Positions 1-3,434 of a DNA stretch of 33,975 bases are shown here, in pieces. The notes below the pieces were generated by a model that worked only from the letters and a program-made list of their open reading frames with translations, searched no databases and was not told the origin of the DNA. Source of the DNA: Desulfobacula sp. (lineage in GTDB: Bacteria > Desulfobacterota > Desulfobacteria > Desulfobacterales > Desulfobacteraceae); assembly GCF_030611305.1 (NCBI RefSeq), contig NZ_JAUWQB010000035.1, positions 1 to 33,975 on the forward strand, written 5' to 3'. Numbering within the stretch: position 1 is the first letter of the stretch; every line of letters begins with the position of its first letter. The translations under genes and the position numbers were made by a program.

Positions 1-171
1 CATGAAATCATCAGGGAAACGTTTTGCCTGCCTTTTTACCGCCTGGTTCAACACCCTGGTTTCAACTTCATAAAGCATTGCAAGGTCTCTATCAAGCATG
101 ACCTTTGTTCCCCTGATATGATAAATTCTCGTTGTTATTTGTTCTATTGTGGCAACACTATTTTCAATCAT
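1..171 (-). CDS. ORF6N-domain DNA-binding protein, 5' end only (runs off the left edge)
   Basis: The minus strand opens with ATG at 171 and reads 57 codons to the window edge without a stop. The visible residues include a segment reading [19 protein letters not shown], the typical start of the ORF6N domain (a phage-type DNA-binding domain related to the KilA-N/Rha group). A GGAG Shine-Dalgarno sequence at 177-180 sits five bases upstream and supports this start. Proteins of this family occur in prophages and mobile islands, and their precise roles are mostly unknown. The gene is preceded by three phased palindromes (183-294) that could be its operators. Only the N-terminus can be seen, so completeness and function cannot be judged. 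Confidence 0.85.
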
Positions 172-181
172 ATTGTCTCCA

Positions 182-294
182 ACTTGAGGTGCCAATTTGT
201 GACCTCAAGATTTAAATCGTTTTATTGGAGGTCACAATTTGTGATATCAAGATTAATATTTCTTGATTGGAGGTGGCAATTTGTGACCTCCAAT
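182..294. repeat. Three imperfect palindromes at a 42-bp period upstream of the ORF6N gene
   Basis: Three copies of a degenerate palindrome with core CAATTTG and outer arms of the type GGAGGT/ACCTCC are centred at 196, 238 and 280, exactly 42 bp apart. Copies 1 (183-209) and 3 (266-294) have long matching outer arms (CTTGAGGT/ACCTCAAG; ATTGGAGGT/ACCTCCAAT) with two mismatched pairs beside the core. Copy 2 (225-251) matches well inside but poorly outside. AT-rich spacers separate them. They fill the gap between the ORF6N start and the recombinase remnant, which suggests operators. A 42-bp period is four helical turns, so bound dimers would lie on one face of the DNA. A tandem-repeat origin is the alternative. 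Confidence 0.75.
221..250 (-). promoter_or_regulatory. Possible promoter of the ORF6N gene, straddling the middle palindrome
   Basis: On the minus strand TTGATA (250-245) and AATAAA (226-221) are separated by 18 bases, and the core of palindrome 2 lies in the spacer. Transcription would start near 214, upstream of palindrome 1 and the GGAG/ATG of the ORF6N gene. A repressor bound at the palindromes would block this promoter. The hexamers are imperfect, so this is a suggestion only. Confidence 0.35.
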
Positions 295-302
295 TTATGA
301 AT

Positions 303-833
303 TCATTTTTTGTGTCGGATATTAACAACTTTCTTTTCCTGTTTGGCATCTTTTTGTTGTTTGAAGATATCATCAATCTGACCAGCGCCACTCTTTAAAG
401 CATCATCCCTTAAATGTGCATATCTCTGCGTCATTTTGGGTGATTTATGAGTCATAAGCTTTTGCAATACATACATATTAACTTTGCCGGAAGATGCAAG
501 CATTGAAGCATAAACATGCCTTAAACCATGCATGGGGCGGAAGTCGTCTGGCAAGCCCGCATTCTTTCTTATTCTTCTTCCTGCAACACCGGTTGTGGTT
601 CTCATGCCGCCATCACGCCCGGGGAAAACATAAGGGCTTTTTGACCGGGTGATACTACTTAACAAGTTCCTGGCCATATCGTTTATGGGTATTTTCTGAT
701 CCGGCCCGCCTTTGGGATCTGCAAGCAATATAAATCCAGTATCAAGATTTACATTCTTCCATTGAAGCTTGAACATTTCCCCACGCCGCATGCCCGTGTA
801 AAGGGCCATTTTCATCATGTTACCCACGTCAAG
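303..833 (-). pseudogene. Tyrosine recombinase (phage integrase) remnant, catalytic domain only
   Basis: The C-terminal catalytic domain of a phage-type integrase is visible. It has the first active-site Arg in TGMRRGE, a beta-hairpin Lys region (DPKGGPDQK), the HGLRH box, a later His in LMTHKSP and the nucleophile Tyr in QRYAHL. The open frame runs up to 956, but codons upstream of about 833 overlap the 3' end of hipA in another frame and do not look like an integrase. The arm-binding and core-binding domains (about 150-200 residues) are therefore missing. The fragment begins exactly where hipA ends, as expected for a 5' deletion or recombination junction. It is probably inactive. The basic C-terminal tail looks intact. 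Confidence 0.75.
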
Positions 834-2049
834 GTTCTCCCAAAGAATCAATCCTTCTATTGATACTCCATTCAAGTCGCTGTATTTCAAGTTCAGGGAC
901 CTTATATTGTTGAAAGACATTTTTCCAACCAGATACTGCCTTTTGAACAGTATCAATTATCTGACTGGCCGTTTCAATGTTATGGGCGGCAGCCATACTT
1001 TGAAGTGTTTTTCTGCCTGGTGGCAGAAAGTCGGCTCCGGACGGGAAAGATAATGAATGCTCTCTTTTTTCGTATATATCCGGCAGCACATCATATACTG
1101 GTGACAGGCAGTAGCCGGATTTTTTATGGAGCATACAAAAGTTTTTAAGGTGATCATCCGTATTTCCGATTGCCACATTAAAAATCATCTGGCGGAATAA
1201 GAAGGGGACATCAATCGAAGGTTGATAACTATGGGCTTTCACCACATCAAACATATCATTATAACTTAAGAAATAATATCCTTGAGCCTGCAATAAGGTT
1301 TGCATACTGATCATATGATATCGACCACCATGACCTGAAATATCGAACCGCCTCACCAATAATGCCCTTTTTTTGCCTATATCCCGGATTTCAAATTCAG
1401 GAACAGGCAATCCAGAGCGCTTCGCCAATTCAAGCGTAGCAGCTTCAATAGACTCCACATGAAAGGTATCATTATGCCGGGGGAACTTTGCAATCCAAAG
1501 AGATCCCGTCTCTTTTCGGCAAAGGGCTTTTGGTCTTGCACCGCCAGGACTGCTTCCGCTTTGATATAACAATTGCAATTCTTCCTCATCTAAAGGCAAT
1601 CCTGATTCGTATCGTGAAGTCGCATTCAAAAGGGTTCCCAAATCTTTTATGCCGGCTGAAGGATCTAGTTTAGCAGGTCTATCCTGTTTCGATTCAAAGG
1701 ACAGGGCTCCTAATCCATTTGACCCCAAAATTTCAAGCAACCTCGGGATGGTCTGTTCGCCCCTTCCAAGCTTTGCTTTTTTAATCAAAAGATTTCTGCC
1801 CCAGTCATCGGGCAGAGCATCTTCAAAAACTGCATGCACCCCTTCCGGTCTATTTGTCTGGAATTCTTTTGAGCTTAAAGGCAGATTCACTGGATCTAAA
1901 GGGAAAGCAAGCGGGTGTTTAAGATACTCTGGGGCATATCGGAAAGCACCCTGTATGATTCCTCTGGGATCAGGCCGGGTGGTGACAATTTCACCGCAAG
2001 ACAATGTTTTATTGCTGGGAAGCGTAACGTTGACAAGCAATCGGATCAT
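829..2049 (-). CDS. hipA: HipA-family serine/threonine kinase toxin
   Basis: This 406-residue protein is the toxin half of a type II toxin-antitoxin pair. Members of the family phosphorylate target proteins (glutamyl-tRNA synthetase in E. coli HipA) and push cells into dormancy. Residues 1-110 resemble the N-terminal coupling domain. SSPGGARPKA (166-175) is the Gly-rich/Lys ATP-binding segment, NTDDHLKN (296-303) is the catalytic loop and YDVLPD (319-324) carries the metal-binding Asp. The length is normal for the family and all key motifs are present, so the toxin looks intact. ATG follows the hipB stop after one base, a tightly coupled two-gene operon. The 3' end abuts the truncated recombinase, which marks a mobile neighbourhood. 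The cellular target of this copy is unknown. Confidence 0.9.
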   Translation of the reverse strand: MIRLLVNVTLPSNKTLSCGEIVTTRPDPRGIIQGAFRYAPEYLKHPLAFPLDPVNLPLSSKEFQTNRPEGVHAVFEDALPDDWGRNLLIKKAKLGRGEQTIPRLLEILGSNGLGALSFESKQDRPAKLDPSAGIKDLGTLLNATSRYESGLPLDEEELQLLYQSGSSPGGARPKALCRKETGSLWIAKFPRHNDTFHVESIEAATLELAKRSGLPVPEFEIRDIGKKRALLVRRFDISGHGGRYHMISMQTLLQAQGYYFLSYNDMFDVVKAHSYQPSIDVPFLFRQMIFNVAIGNTDDHLKNFCMLHKKSGYCLSPVYDVLPDIYEKREHSLSFPSGADFLPPGRKTLQSMAAAHNIETASQIIDTVQKAVSGWKNVFQQYKVPELEIQRLEWSINRRIDSLGEP

Positions 2050-2050
2050 T

Positions 2051-2353
2051 CTATTTTTGCCTTCGTACCCGTTGCCGGGTTTTTGTTTTTTCTAAAACCT
2101 CATATCTTTCGAACAACGATTCTCTGGGTGCTATCAATTTTTCAAAATCATCCAGTTTGCCAAGCATGGATAAAGCTTTAACCCATGTGCCGATTGATAT
2201 GGAAGGATTTCCCTGTTCCATTTTGTAAAGGGTTGGAATGGATACCCCGATCCTGAATGCAAACTCTTTTTGTGGATCATTTAATTCTAACCTGGCGCTT
2301 TTCAGACGCTGCCCCAGTTTTTTCAAGATTTCATTTTCTTTAACATTAATCAT
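2051..2353 (-). CDS. hipB: HipB-like Xre-family antitoxin and repressor
   Basis: This 100-residue protein has a helix-turn-helix of the Cro/C1 (Xre) type at about residues 10-65. The segment FAFRIGVSIPTLYKMEQGNPSI reads as a recognition-helix region. Its position directly upstream of hipA, with one base between stop and start, fits the antitoxin that neutralises HipA and represses the operon. The C-terminal 15 residues are strongly basic (KTKTRQRVRRQK). There is no clear Shine-Dalgarno sequence before the ATG at 2353. Two near-identical 12-bp palindromic sequences at 2339-2350 and 2374-2385 are likely operators, one inside the first codons and one across the promoter. Confidence 0.85.
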   Translation of the reverse strand: MINVKENEILKKLGQRLKSARLELNDPQKEFAFRIGVSIPTLYKMEQGNPSISIGTWVKALSMLGKLDDFEKLIAPRESLFERYEVLEKTKTRQRVRRQK

Positions 2354-2389
2354 ATTTTGTTTTATCGCATGAATTTAACATTAAAGCAA
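2339..2389 (-). promoter_or_regulatory. hipBA promoter with two candidate HipB operators
   Basis: TTGCTT (2389-2384) and GATAAA (2366-2361) lie 17 bases apart on the minus strand, so transcription would begin near 2354, right at the hipB ATG. The near-palindrome TTTAACATTAAA (2374-2385) overlaps the -35 box and spacer. Its close copy TTTAACATTAAT (2339-2350) lies over hipB codons 2-5. The centres are 35 bp apart. Repeated operators around the promoter are the normal arrangement for hipBA autoregulation; the specific assignment is inferred. Confidence 0.5.
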
Positions 2390-2413
2390 ATTATATTTGG
2401 GGTCAAAGGGATC

Positions 2414-3434
2414 GGGGTCAGGCTTCGCTTATTGTGGTTATTGCATTATGGATATATGCATGGTATTTAAATAATTATGTCAAGGAAACCTCGCATACAC
2501 TACCCTGGAGCAATTTATCACGTAATGCTCAGGGGGAACGCAAAACAGACTATTTTTCATGGGGATGAAGAATACCGGTATTTTGAAGATATCCTGGCCC
2601 AGGGATTGGAGCAATACTCGCTTATGCTGTATGCATACTGCTGGATGAAAAATCATGTTCATATGGCGTTGCAGGTCACAGACAAACCACTTTCAAAACT
2701 GATGCAAAATATTTCCCAGCGATATACATACTGGCTCAATAAGCGGCATGATCGGGTCGGGCACCTGTTCCAGGGGCGGTACAAAGCCATTCTTGTGGAC
2801 AAAGATGGTTATTTGTCAGAGCTGATCCGCTATATTCATCTTAACCCGGTACGAGCTAATCTGGTAAGTGATGCCATTGATTATCCTATGAGCAGCCATG
2901 CTGCCTATGCCGGGCGTGTGAAATCACCCTGCTGGTTAAGCGTTGATCAGGGTCTGGGACAATTTGGCAAAACCAAATCTTCTGCACAAGCTTCGTATTT
3001 GCATTTTATGGGACAAATCACAGAGGAAGAACTTCTGGAGCAGCTCCGCCATGGCACCAAGCAGGGACGGATACTCGGCAATGAAGATTTTATTAAAGTT
3101 ACACTCAAACAAAACAAAGAAAAGGTTTCAGCACAGATTACAATTGAGCAGATAGTGGATGTAGTGGCACAGGCTTACCAAGTTTCACCTCGGGAAATGA
3201 CAAGTGCCAGTCGTGCGAGAAATCTGGCAGAAGCAAGAGCAATGACTGCAATGATCGGCATGGATCATTGCGATTATTTGCTGTCAAATTTTGCACTATA
3301 CTTTAACCGGAATATGCCATCAATGAGCAAGCTGGTCAGGGATGTACGTACCCGCCTTACAAAAAGCCAGTCAATGCATGAGAGAATGGAGCATATCAAA
3401 GATCAAATAACCACAATAAGCGAAGCCTGACCCC
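2414..3434 (+). mobile_element. RAYT-type element bounded by a perfect 29-bp inverted repeat
   Basis: The 29 bases at 2414-2442 and the 29 bases at 3406-3434 are exact reverse complements (outer end GGGGTCAGGCTTCGCTTATT). They enclose a single HUH transposase gene. The right copy encodes the last codons and stop of that gene. Extra GGGGTCA or TGACCCC words occur just outside both ends (2399-2405 and 3445-3451). Classic IS200/IS605 elements have subterminal hairpins rather than long terminal inverted repeats, so the boundaries are a reading of this sequence, not a known family definition. Confidence 0.6.
2477..3430 (+). CDS. REP-associated tyrosine transposase (RAYT, Y1_Tnp/HUH superfamily) with DnaA-like C-terminal domain
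   Basis: This 317-residue protein begins MSRKPRIHYPGAIYHVMLRG, the usual opening of RAYT proteins. Residues 60-62 form the HUH motif (NHVHMAL), followed by GHLFQGRYKA and the helix DGYLSELIRYIHLNPVRA, which carries the catalytic Tyr (Y112 or Y119). Residues from about 205 (ITIEQIVDVVAQAYQVSP...) resemble the helix-turn-helix domain found at the C-terminus of DnaA, a known add-on in long RAYTs. The enzymes cut single-stranded DNA at repeat hairpins. There is no clear ribosome binding site. The last residues are encoded inside the right 29-bp inverted repeat. It is full length and looks active. Confidence 0.85.
   Translation: MSRKPRIHYPGAIYHVMLRGNAKQTIFHGDEEYRYFEDILAQGLEQYSLMLYAYCWMKNHVHMALQVTDKPLSKLMQNISQRYTYWLNKRHDRVGHLFQGRYKAILVDKDGYLSELIRYIHLNPVRANLVSDAIDYPMSSHAAYAGRVKSPCWLSVDQGLGQFGKTKSSAQASYLHFMGQITEEELLEQLRHGTKQGRILGNEDFIKVTLKQNKEKVSAQITIEQIVDVVAQAYQVSPREMTSASRARNLAEARAMTAMIGMDHCDYLLSNFALYFNRNMPSMSKLVRDVRTRLTKSQSMHERMEHIKDQITTISEA

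Follow-up and report, generated by a model that had tools for sequence, protein, structure and literature searches.

The window analysed here comprises 33,975 nucleotides of a Desulfobacula sp. contig (NZ_JAUWQB010000035.1, assembly GCF_030611305.1). It opens, on the minus strand, with the 5' end of an ORF6N-domain gene (positions 1-171), which has its ATG at 171-169 and runs for 57 codons until the contig ends. The first-pass annotation had placed an ORF6N gene beside three palindromes, and this is borne out by the match to PF10543 (63.4 bits, cut-off 27.8), which covers profile positions 2-44 of 86 up to the contig end. It is the only ORF6N match in this genome. The family belongs to the Bro/KilA-N network; its domain is matched by the window gene and also by the relatives that were compared. 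In the accessible text of the respective papers, ORF6N (PF10543) is one of the Pfam models given for the Bro network (PMC10111431) and is classed as an antirepressor in a phage (PMC6591296). On the other side of the palindromes an ORF with an integrase catalytic domain (303-956, minus strand; PF00589) adjoins them and overlaps the 3' end of a hipA-like gene (829-2049), which is preceded by a helix-turn-helix gene (2051-2353), so that the segment 829-2353 on the minus strand resembles a HipBA pair. Further on (2477-3430, plus strand), a Y1 (IS200-like) transposase domain and a DnaA C-terminal-like domain occur in a single protein.

The palindromes occupy the gap between the ORF6N start codon and the stop (303) of the integrase-type ORF. 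Palindrome 1 (183-209, centre 196) is nearest to the start codon, pairs at 11 of 13 positions and has the half-sites TCACA and TGCCA; palindrome 2 (225-251, centre 238) pairs at 9 of 13 positions with TCACA in both half-sites; and palindrome 3 (267-293, centre 280) pairs at 11 of 13 with TCACA and TGGCA. All three are thus imperfect, but each is 27 bp long and has the form that we define here, namely an odd palindrome with a CA-N3-TG core and arms of 13 nt, beside or inside an ORF6N gene. The CAATTTG core and the distance of exactly 42 bp between centres, both already annotated, were confirmed: the palindromes lie in a direct repeat of three copies (186-311, spacing 42 and 42), whose second unit is 76% and whose third is 67% identical to the first. 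Within the window, no 27-mer apart from the sites at 196 and 280 has 11 or more pairs; a mean of 0.53 such 27-mers was expected from 30 first-order Markov sequences. In the 3.57-Mb genome the common pattern GAGGTNNCAATTTGTGANNTC is matched exactly at three places, all in front of this ORF6N gene, and the further sites among the matches listed have three mismatches each. REP/RAYT elements, which have many dispersed intergenic copies, were rejected on this count (three exact copies in 3.57 Mb, at one gene), although a Y1 transposase domain is present in the window (2477-3430). A search of Rfam with positions 1-3000 gave no match up to E = 1. The promoter that had been proposed over the middle palindrome was not recovered, as the sole sigma-70-like match covers the first site instead (195 to 167), and one match is at chance level (mean 1.3 in shuffled sequences).

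A search for the 17-mer core of the palindrome in 84,980 species genomes yielded at least 116 stretches with at least 123 exact copies. Among the 123 copies listed, 78 were inside an ORF6N domain, 20 lay within about 600 bp upstream of one, 7 were elsewhere in an ORF6N-bearing stretch and 18 had no ORF6N domain in the fetched stretch. Within the phylum of the window (395 genomes), the 17-mer occurred 47 times in 39 genomes, while the same palindrome read backwards did not occur at all in the 395 genomes. ORF6N genes are patchy in this phylum (99 of 395 genomes, with several genomes holding many and up to 10), but a comparison of the two genome lists by eye gave an ORF6N match in 38 of the 39 genomes with the 17-mer; the exception (G393) is one of 296 genomes without such a match. 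For 30 of the 47 copies a stretch was available, and with the first profile 25 of these were in or near an ORF6N domain. A looser palindrome pattern was found in 44 of 60 ORF6N-bearing and in none of 60 ORF6N-free genomes picked from the 395. Of the copies that seemed to lie elsewhere (24 in 20 stretches), 18 turned out to lie within or close to an ORF6N domain that was divergent or partial, which left 6.

In most relatives the palindrome lies within the coding sequence itself. Among 118 genes found by domain search alone, a set that avoids the bias of choosing loci by the 17-mer, the palindrome is present internally in 107, with 8 or more of 10 pairs, and 48 of these have all ten. The same holds for 198 of 216 distinct full-length domains (derived from 309 matches, 235 of them full-length), in which the palindrome was sought only 140-235 nt into the domain. 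Its centre lies 171-174 nt into the domain in 174 of the 213 domains with at least seven pairs, and the named loci that contain it are assigned to 17 phyla, with many metagenome-assembled genomes among them. Pairing extends 13 bases in each direction and then falls: in 168 coding copies it goes from 0.82 to 0.46, in 55 upstream copies from 0.71 to 0.29; the fall is less sharp in 16 copies without ORF6N (0.62 to 0.44). When codons were drawn synonymously for the 114 of the 118 genes with at least 7 of 10 pairs, with amino acids fixed and codons drawn by their usage elsewhere in the domain, only 5.3 of 13 positions paired as against 11.9 observed, with P<=0.01 in 109 of the 114 genes. The arms co-vary as whole pairs, as is seen in the codon combinations TCA-GTG (47), TCG-GCG (22), TGC-GGC (10) and TTC-GGA (9). 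This covariation far exceeds what the protein needs, and the DNA itself is what is kept.

The same place is read in two frames, since 102 genes of the domain-search set encode an RSQIVTS-like and five an LVTNCDR-like peptide. Parsimony gave 20, 16 and 11 changes of frame on three trees, but well-supported branches force just 9 (FastTree) or 3 (IQ-TREE), and repeated switching was dropped as a candidate because a single origin is not rejected (AU p 0.089). Eleven of the 118 genes have fewer than eight pairs. Nine of these come from the family of the window, eight of them from one other genus of that family (L005, L008, L010 and L012-L016), in which the ORF6N protein is kept and the internal palindrome is mostly lost. 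Since the family genes without a good palindrome keep both the gene and a helix with glutamine, the site is dispensable there. The window contig stops short of the place where relatives bear the internal palindrome; a clear prediction is that one would be found in this gene beyond the contig end, with TCACA half-sites and its centre about 87 nt past the start of codon 43.

An AlphaFold model of a reference ORF6N protein (L114, from Polaribacter septentrionalilitoris, with Q45; mean pLDDT 83.7) has helices at residues 29-36 and 40-49. The palindrome encodes residues 69-78, which comprise the end of a helix and a loop of low confidence (mean 64 in block 71-80), and residues 41, 45 and 49 of the second helix are encoded about 75 bp before the palindrome. 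If residues encoded by the palindrome itself are set aside, the alignment column most strongly linked to base pair 4 from the centre is residue 45: glutamine goes with A (131 of 132 genes), glutamate with G (29 of 30), arginine with C (22 of 22) and lysine with C (9 of 9), together 191 of 193. At pair 5 the same residues go with C (Q, 134 of 134; E, 30 of 30), G (R, 14 of 15) and T (K, 9 of 9), so that Q, E, R and K at position 45 correspond to the letters CA, CG, GC and TC at pairs 4-5. These counts come from those of the 216 domains that have at least 8 of 10 pairs and symmetric letters at the given pair; at pair 4 this holds for 193 genes, with five asymmetric genes set aside, and the Q-A count is inflated because several groups of loci (L040-L155, L156-L232 and L263-L292) were chosen by a 17-mer containing TCACA. 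The helix could not be read by pattern in L220, L518, L519 and L524. For pair 7 the link is to residue 41, where K goes with G in 139 of 139 genes and R with A in 23 of 30. For pair 3, among six columns tallied, it is to residue 49, where all 193 genes with R have C and all four with N have A; the four N49 genes have almost identical helices. Residues 41 and 45 are jointly correct in 160 of 168 genes. No residue stood out for base pairs 8-13, for which the top columns are encoded in or near the palindrome.

In the model, residues 41, 45 and 49 (i, i+4, i+8) would lie on one face of a helix and follow the half-site from the outside inwards, as is expected of a helix in the major groove. Contacts of glutamine with A, of arginine or lysine with G and of asparagine with A are textbook pairs. 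Three plasmid-borne genes may be read in the same way: a Bacteroides uniformis plasmid has R41 and Q45 with the site AATCACA, a Legionella oakridgensis plasmid I41 and E45 with TATCGCA (8 of 12 pairs) and a Haliovirga abyssi plasmid Q45 with TCACA (9 of 12 pairs). Sequence search gave no convincing solved relative of ORF6N and Foldseek no match to the model with E < 0.001; VIA-align gave weak matches to folds of solved DNA-binding proteins, the scores being those for a Ski-like protein (6.7), a granulovirus protein (6.7), Dachshund (6.3), a ParA-type partition protein (5.2) and RacA (5.1).

In the window, the predicted recognition-helix codons lie at 31-57 on the minus strand and encode R39, Q43 and R47, which are equivalent to residues 41, 45 and 49 of the reference protein. 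This helix predicts TCACA half-sites, A or G at pair 7 and C at pair 3. TCACA is present in four of the six half-sites and at least once in each site, with TGCCA and TGGCA as the exceptions, and C is present at pair 3 in all six. Since four of six half-sites are as the helix predicts, the window palindromes fit as degenerate copies of a site for their own protein.

Related proteins may share both helix and palindrome through common descent, and the correspondence was therefore compared with kinship in several ways. When residue 45 was shuffled 2000 times within 25 clusters of related proteins, the code was followed by 116 genes on average and by no more than 137, against the observed 191 of 193. 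When each cluster at 80% identity is represented once, the two-letter code holds at 150 of 152 symmetric sites; it also holds for 35 of 35 representatives that are less than 65% identical (26 of these with Q). In 55 disjoint pairs of proteins that are at least 60% identical but differ at residue 45, both members fit the strict two-letter code in 44. On the tree, 40 changes are needed for the residue and 36 for the base. A count limited to independent pairs on well-supported branches (Q versus other) has only four pairs, of which on average 3.9 agree and none oppose (p 0.125). Lastly, 28 of 31 held-out genes follow the code at pairs 4-5, while two sites are asymmetric and one gene (L387, in which the domain is split over two stretches, see L405) contradicts it by having R with CA; some of the 31 are mutually related and some were fetched by palindrome patterns, but their choice was blind to residue 45. 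Held-out genes of the second reading frame, which encode a different peptide at the palindrome, follow the code in 10 of 10 cases (five E, five Q).

Palindrome, covariation and code can be read directly from the sequences, and on this basis we infer that ORF6N proteins very probably bind this palindrome as symmetric dimers. The first-pass annotation read the palindromes as DNA targets of an ORF6N protein, which the related genes, the genome survey and the helix code strongly support at the level of sequence; in general, the letters of upstream copies match the helix residue of the gene behind them no better than chance. We propose that an ORF6N dimer would read the 27-bp palindrome through its helix, with residue 41 contacting base pair 7 from the centre, residue 45 pairs 4-5 and residue 49 pair 3. 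Because in most genes the site would lie inside the protein's own coding sequence, in the part for the helix end and loop, gene and site would move and evolve jointly. Negative autoregulation is the most likely use, in which bound protein would stop transcription through the gene, and in some genes additional upstream copies could assist repression. In the window, three such copies just before the ORF6N start codon may have arisen by duplication of the 42-bp unit. As a whole this explanation is likely; that the internal site mainly serves to control its own gene is somewhat favoured, given the position of the site and what is known of intragenic operators.

Intragenic operators are exemplified by lac O2 in lacZ and the internal gal operator. 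They resemble the ORF6N case in being palindromic repressor sites within coding sequence that are paired with upstream sites. They differ in that the ORF6N gene carries the likely site of its own product, in the part coding for the DNA-binding domain, and does so at one place across many phyla with arms that co-vary. The literature searched, which lay mostly outside subscription journals, had no description of a DNA target, a palindrome or a recognition code of ORF6N, and no report of a KilA-N palindrome as judged by titles and the start of abstracts.

Four other readings need to be considered. The first concerns the spacing in the window, which the first-pass annotation had taken as a sign of a cooperative operator, with three sites phased at 42 bp and bound cooperatively on one face of the DNA helix. 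This is compatible with the explanation given above. It would agree with the exact spacing of 42 and 42 in the window and with two relatives of the same genus (L004 and L011), which have two palindromes each, spaced by 42 and 41, and share the order of integrase end, palindromes and ORF6N gene (integrase likeness judged by eye). ORF6N genes elsewhere with several upstream copies have irregular spacing, from 26 to 137 bp, and the helical phasing expected of cooperative sites was not conserved outside the genus. The window has one unit more than L004 and L011, palindrome 3 being the additional copy, and the equal spacing is therefore most simply a trace of duplication, since diverged duplicates of a 42-bp unit would be equally spaced in any case. 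The promoter match is not beyond chance either. With a spacing of 41-42 bp kept by two same-genus relatives only, the cooperative operator is unsupported and we consider it unlikely; it is similarly doubtful that the phasing matters in the window.

Secondly, ORF6N could bind the palindrome in its own gene for homing, copy-specific mobilisation, partition or silencing of the DNA that carries it, which we consider improbable. Such a use would explain why the match between protein and site is in cis and why the genes are patchy and up to 10 per genome, and ORF6N genes do occur on plasmids (21 records), two of which are of 3-4 kb and have only a replication gene annotated beside it. An association with integrases is hinted at by the window, L004, L011 and plasmids of Bacteroides ovatus and Legionella oakridgensis, but was not retained, because a tyrosine-integrase motif was present upstream of just 3 of 129 genes, by a motif that misses L011.

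Thirdly, the palindrome could be a selfish element that inserts into coding sequences, with template switching keeping the arms alike. Palindromes are tolerated in protein-coding genes in the case of Rickettsia palindromic elements and in mitochondrial genes of Nematomorpha, to which the ORF6N palindrome is alike in lying inside protein-coding genes; as described in the accessible part of that work, these are inserted elements in several genes or repeats of up to 284 bp at many places of mitochondrial genes (PMC6649704). In contrast, the ORF6N palindrome is confined to one gene family, one position and one 27-bp unit, and it matches residues of the protein. The two reading frames at one place, second copies in some domains (seen by eye, e.g. 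in L306 and L316), the copies in viral contigs without ORF6N and the 18 of 123 exact copies, among the matches listed, without ORF6N in the fetched stretch could all be explained by insertion. However, 105 of the 123 listed copies are in, upstream of or near ORF6N domains, and the looser pattern is absent from the 60 ORF6N-free genomes. A Rickettsia-type element, with insertions in many unrelated genes, was rejected because 98 of the 123 listed copies are in an ORF6N domain or precede one by up to about 600 bp. Template switching as described in the accessible parts of two papers (PMC8794818, PMC7202029) could maintain inverted repeats and may help to keep the arms of the palindrome equal, but it leaves the link to the helix residues, about 75 bp away, unexplained. 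We therefore regard the selfish element as very improbable.

Least probable is that the messenger forms a hairpin here, or a terminator, and that selection keeps its arms paired: the arms do pair and co-vary and T-runs flank about half of the distinct viral contexts of GGTCACAAATTGTGACC and GGTCGCAAATTGCGACC (28 of 57 and 24 of 55), but upstream copies have 12 G-U, 15 A-C and 13 other mismatches, seven pairs tallied in coding copies of the domain-search set gave 9 G-U versus 28 A-C, pair 4 is G-U in none of 88 sites of that set and in 1 of 129 over all loci though synonymous codons would permit it, the central base has no strand preference (A 56, T 58), Rfam gave no match and the helix code is left unexplained. 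That wobble pairs are not favoured points to DNA rather than RNA.

Under the preferred reading, in which an ORF6N dimer would bind a site in its own gene, the copies in front of ORF6N genes need a separate explanation. Most genes have none, with a relaxed count giving 15 of 117. Upstream half-sites match residue 45 of the gene behind them in 41 of 90 cases, as against 37.7 expected (p 0.30), and upstream arms are no more like the internal arms of the same gene than chance, with p 0.11 in a count that includes a few sites in a preceding ORF6N gene (L316) and p 0.15 in one that excludes these. Both halves have the same two letters, mostly CA or CG, in 39 of 45 upstream sites, which had been preselected for at least 8 of 9 pairs, a choice that favours symmetric letters. 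In loci that were not fetched by the 17-mer, with pair 4 ignored in the choice, that pair is symmetric in 96 of 99 sites, mostly coding ones. Most simply, many of the upstream copies would be bound by other ORF6N proteins. Within a genome, the arms of paralogues are slightly less alike than in shuffled sets (5.41 versus 5.70 of 10, 188 pairs, p 0.026). A private palindrome for each paralogue was nevertheless not retained as a finding, because identical pairs within a genome are not rarer than chance (2 versus 3.9, p 0.26); an earlier, smaller set had given p 0.08.

We think it probable that ORF6N genes form a self-addressed family, in which each gene would hold the site of its own protein and the two would be tied by a three-residue code. 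Joint changes of helix and palindrome could then create new specificities, so that one genome might hold mutually distinct self-regulators, with non-coding upstream copies of differing letters cross-wiring them. It is unusual that one stretch of DNA is both protein code and the likely binding site of that same protein, in two frames and in 17 named phyla. Since the match of helix and palindrome lets a target be read from the sequence of an ORF6N protein, the family is testable at once, and if each site is private, it would offer a natural collection of small DNA-binding switches that differ from one another.

ORF6N domains are found in bacteria, plasmids and phages. In viral contigs, GGTCACAAATTGTGACC was present in 77 stretches (L156-L232) and GGTCGCAAATTGCGACC in at least 80 (L410-L489), and 6 of 50 viral records with GGTCACAAATTGTGACC that were examined bear ORF6N. 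In three of these stretches (L217, L416 and L420), a phage protein of another kind apparently encodes the palindrome, and pair 4 is changed on both arms together, with KVTNCDL versus KVANCDL (both judged by eye). Control palindromes occurred in 0, 2 and 28 viral stretches, so that one control was not clean. The latter, GGTGTCAAATTGACACC (L490-L517), is often in similar GC-rich contexts and is possibly another recurrent phage site.

Some ORF6N proteins have additional parts. In a Bdellovibrionales genome (L113, 3306-4151, plus strand), the domain is fused to the C-terminal DNA-binding domain of DnaA (PF08299, 90 bits). Seven proteins of about 290-370 amino acids (L067, L081, L089, L057, L080, L142 and L050) have a C-terminal extension with HDRFLIID- and GASLKDLGKK-like motifs, as judged by eye; a Pfam scan of this extension in three of them (L067, L142 and L050) gave no match. 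Two plasmids of Segatella copri (L518 and L519; 4,140 and 2,955 bp) have two annotated genes each, one for ORF6N and one for replication, and in their internal palindromes A replaces C at pair 3.
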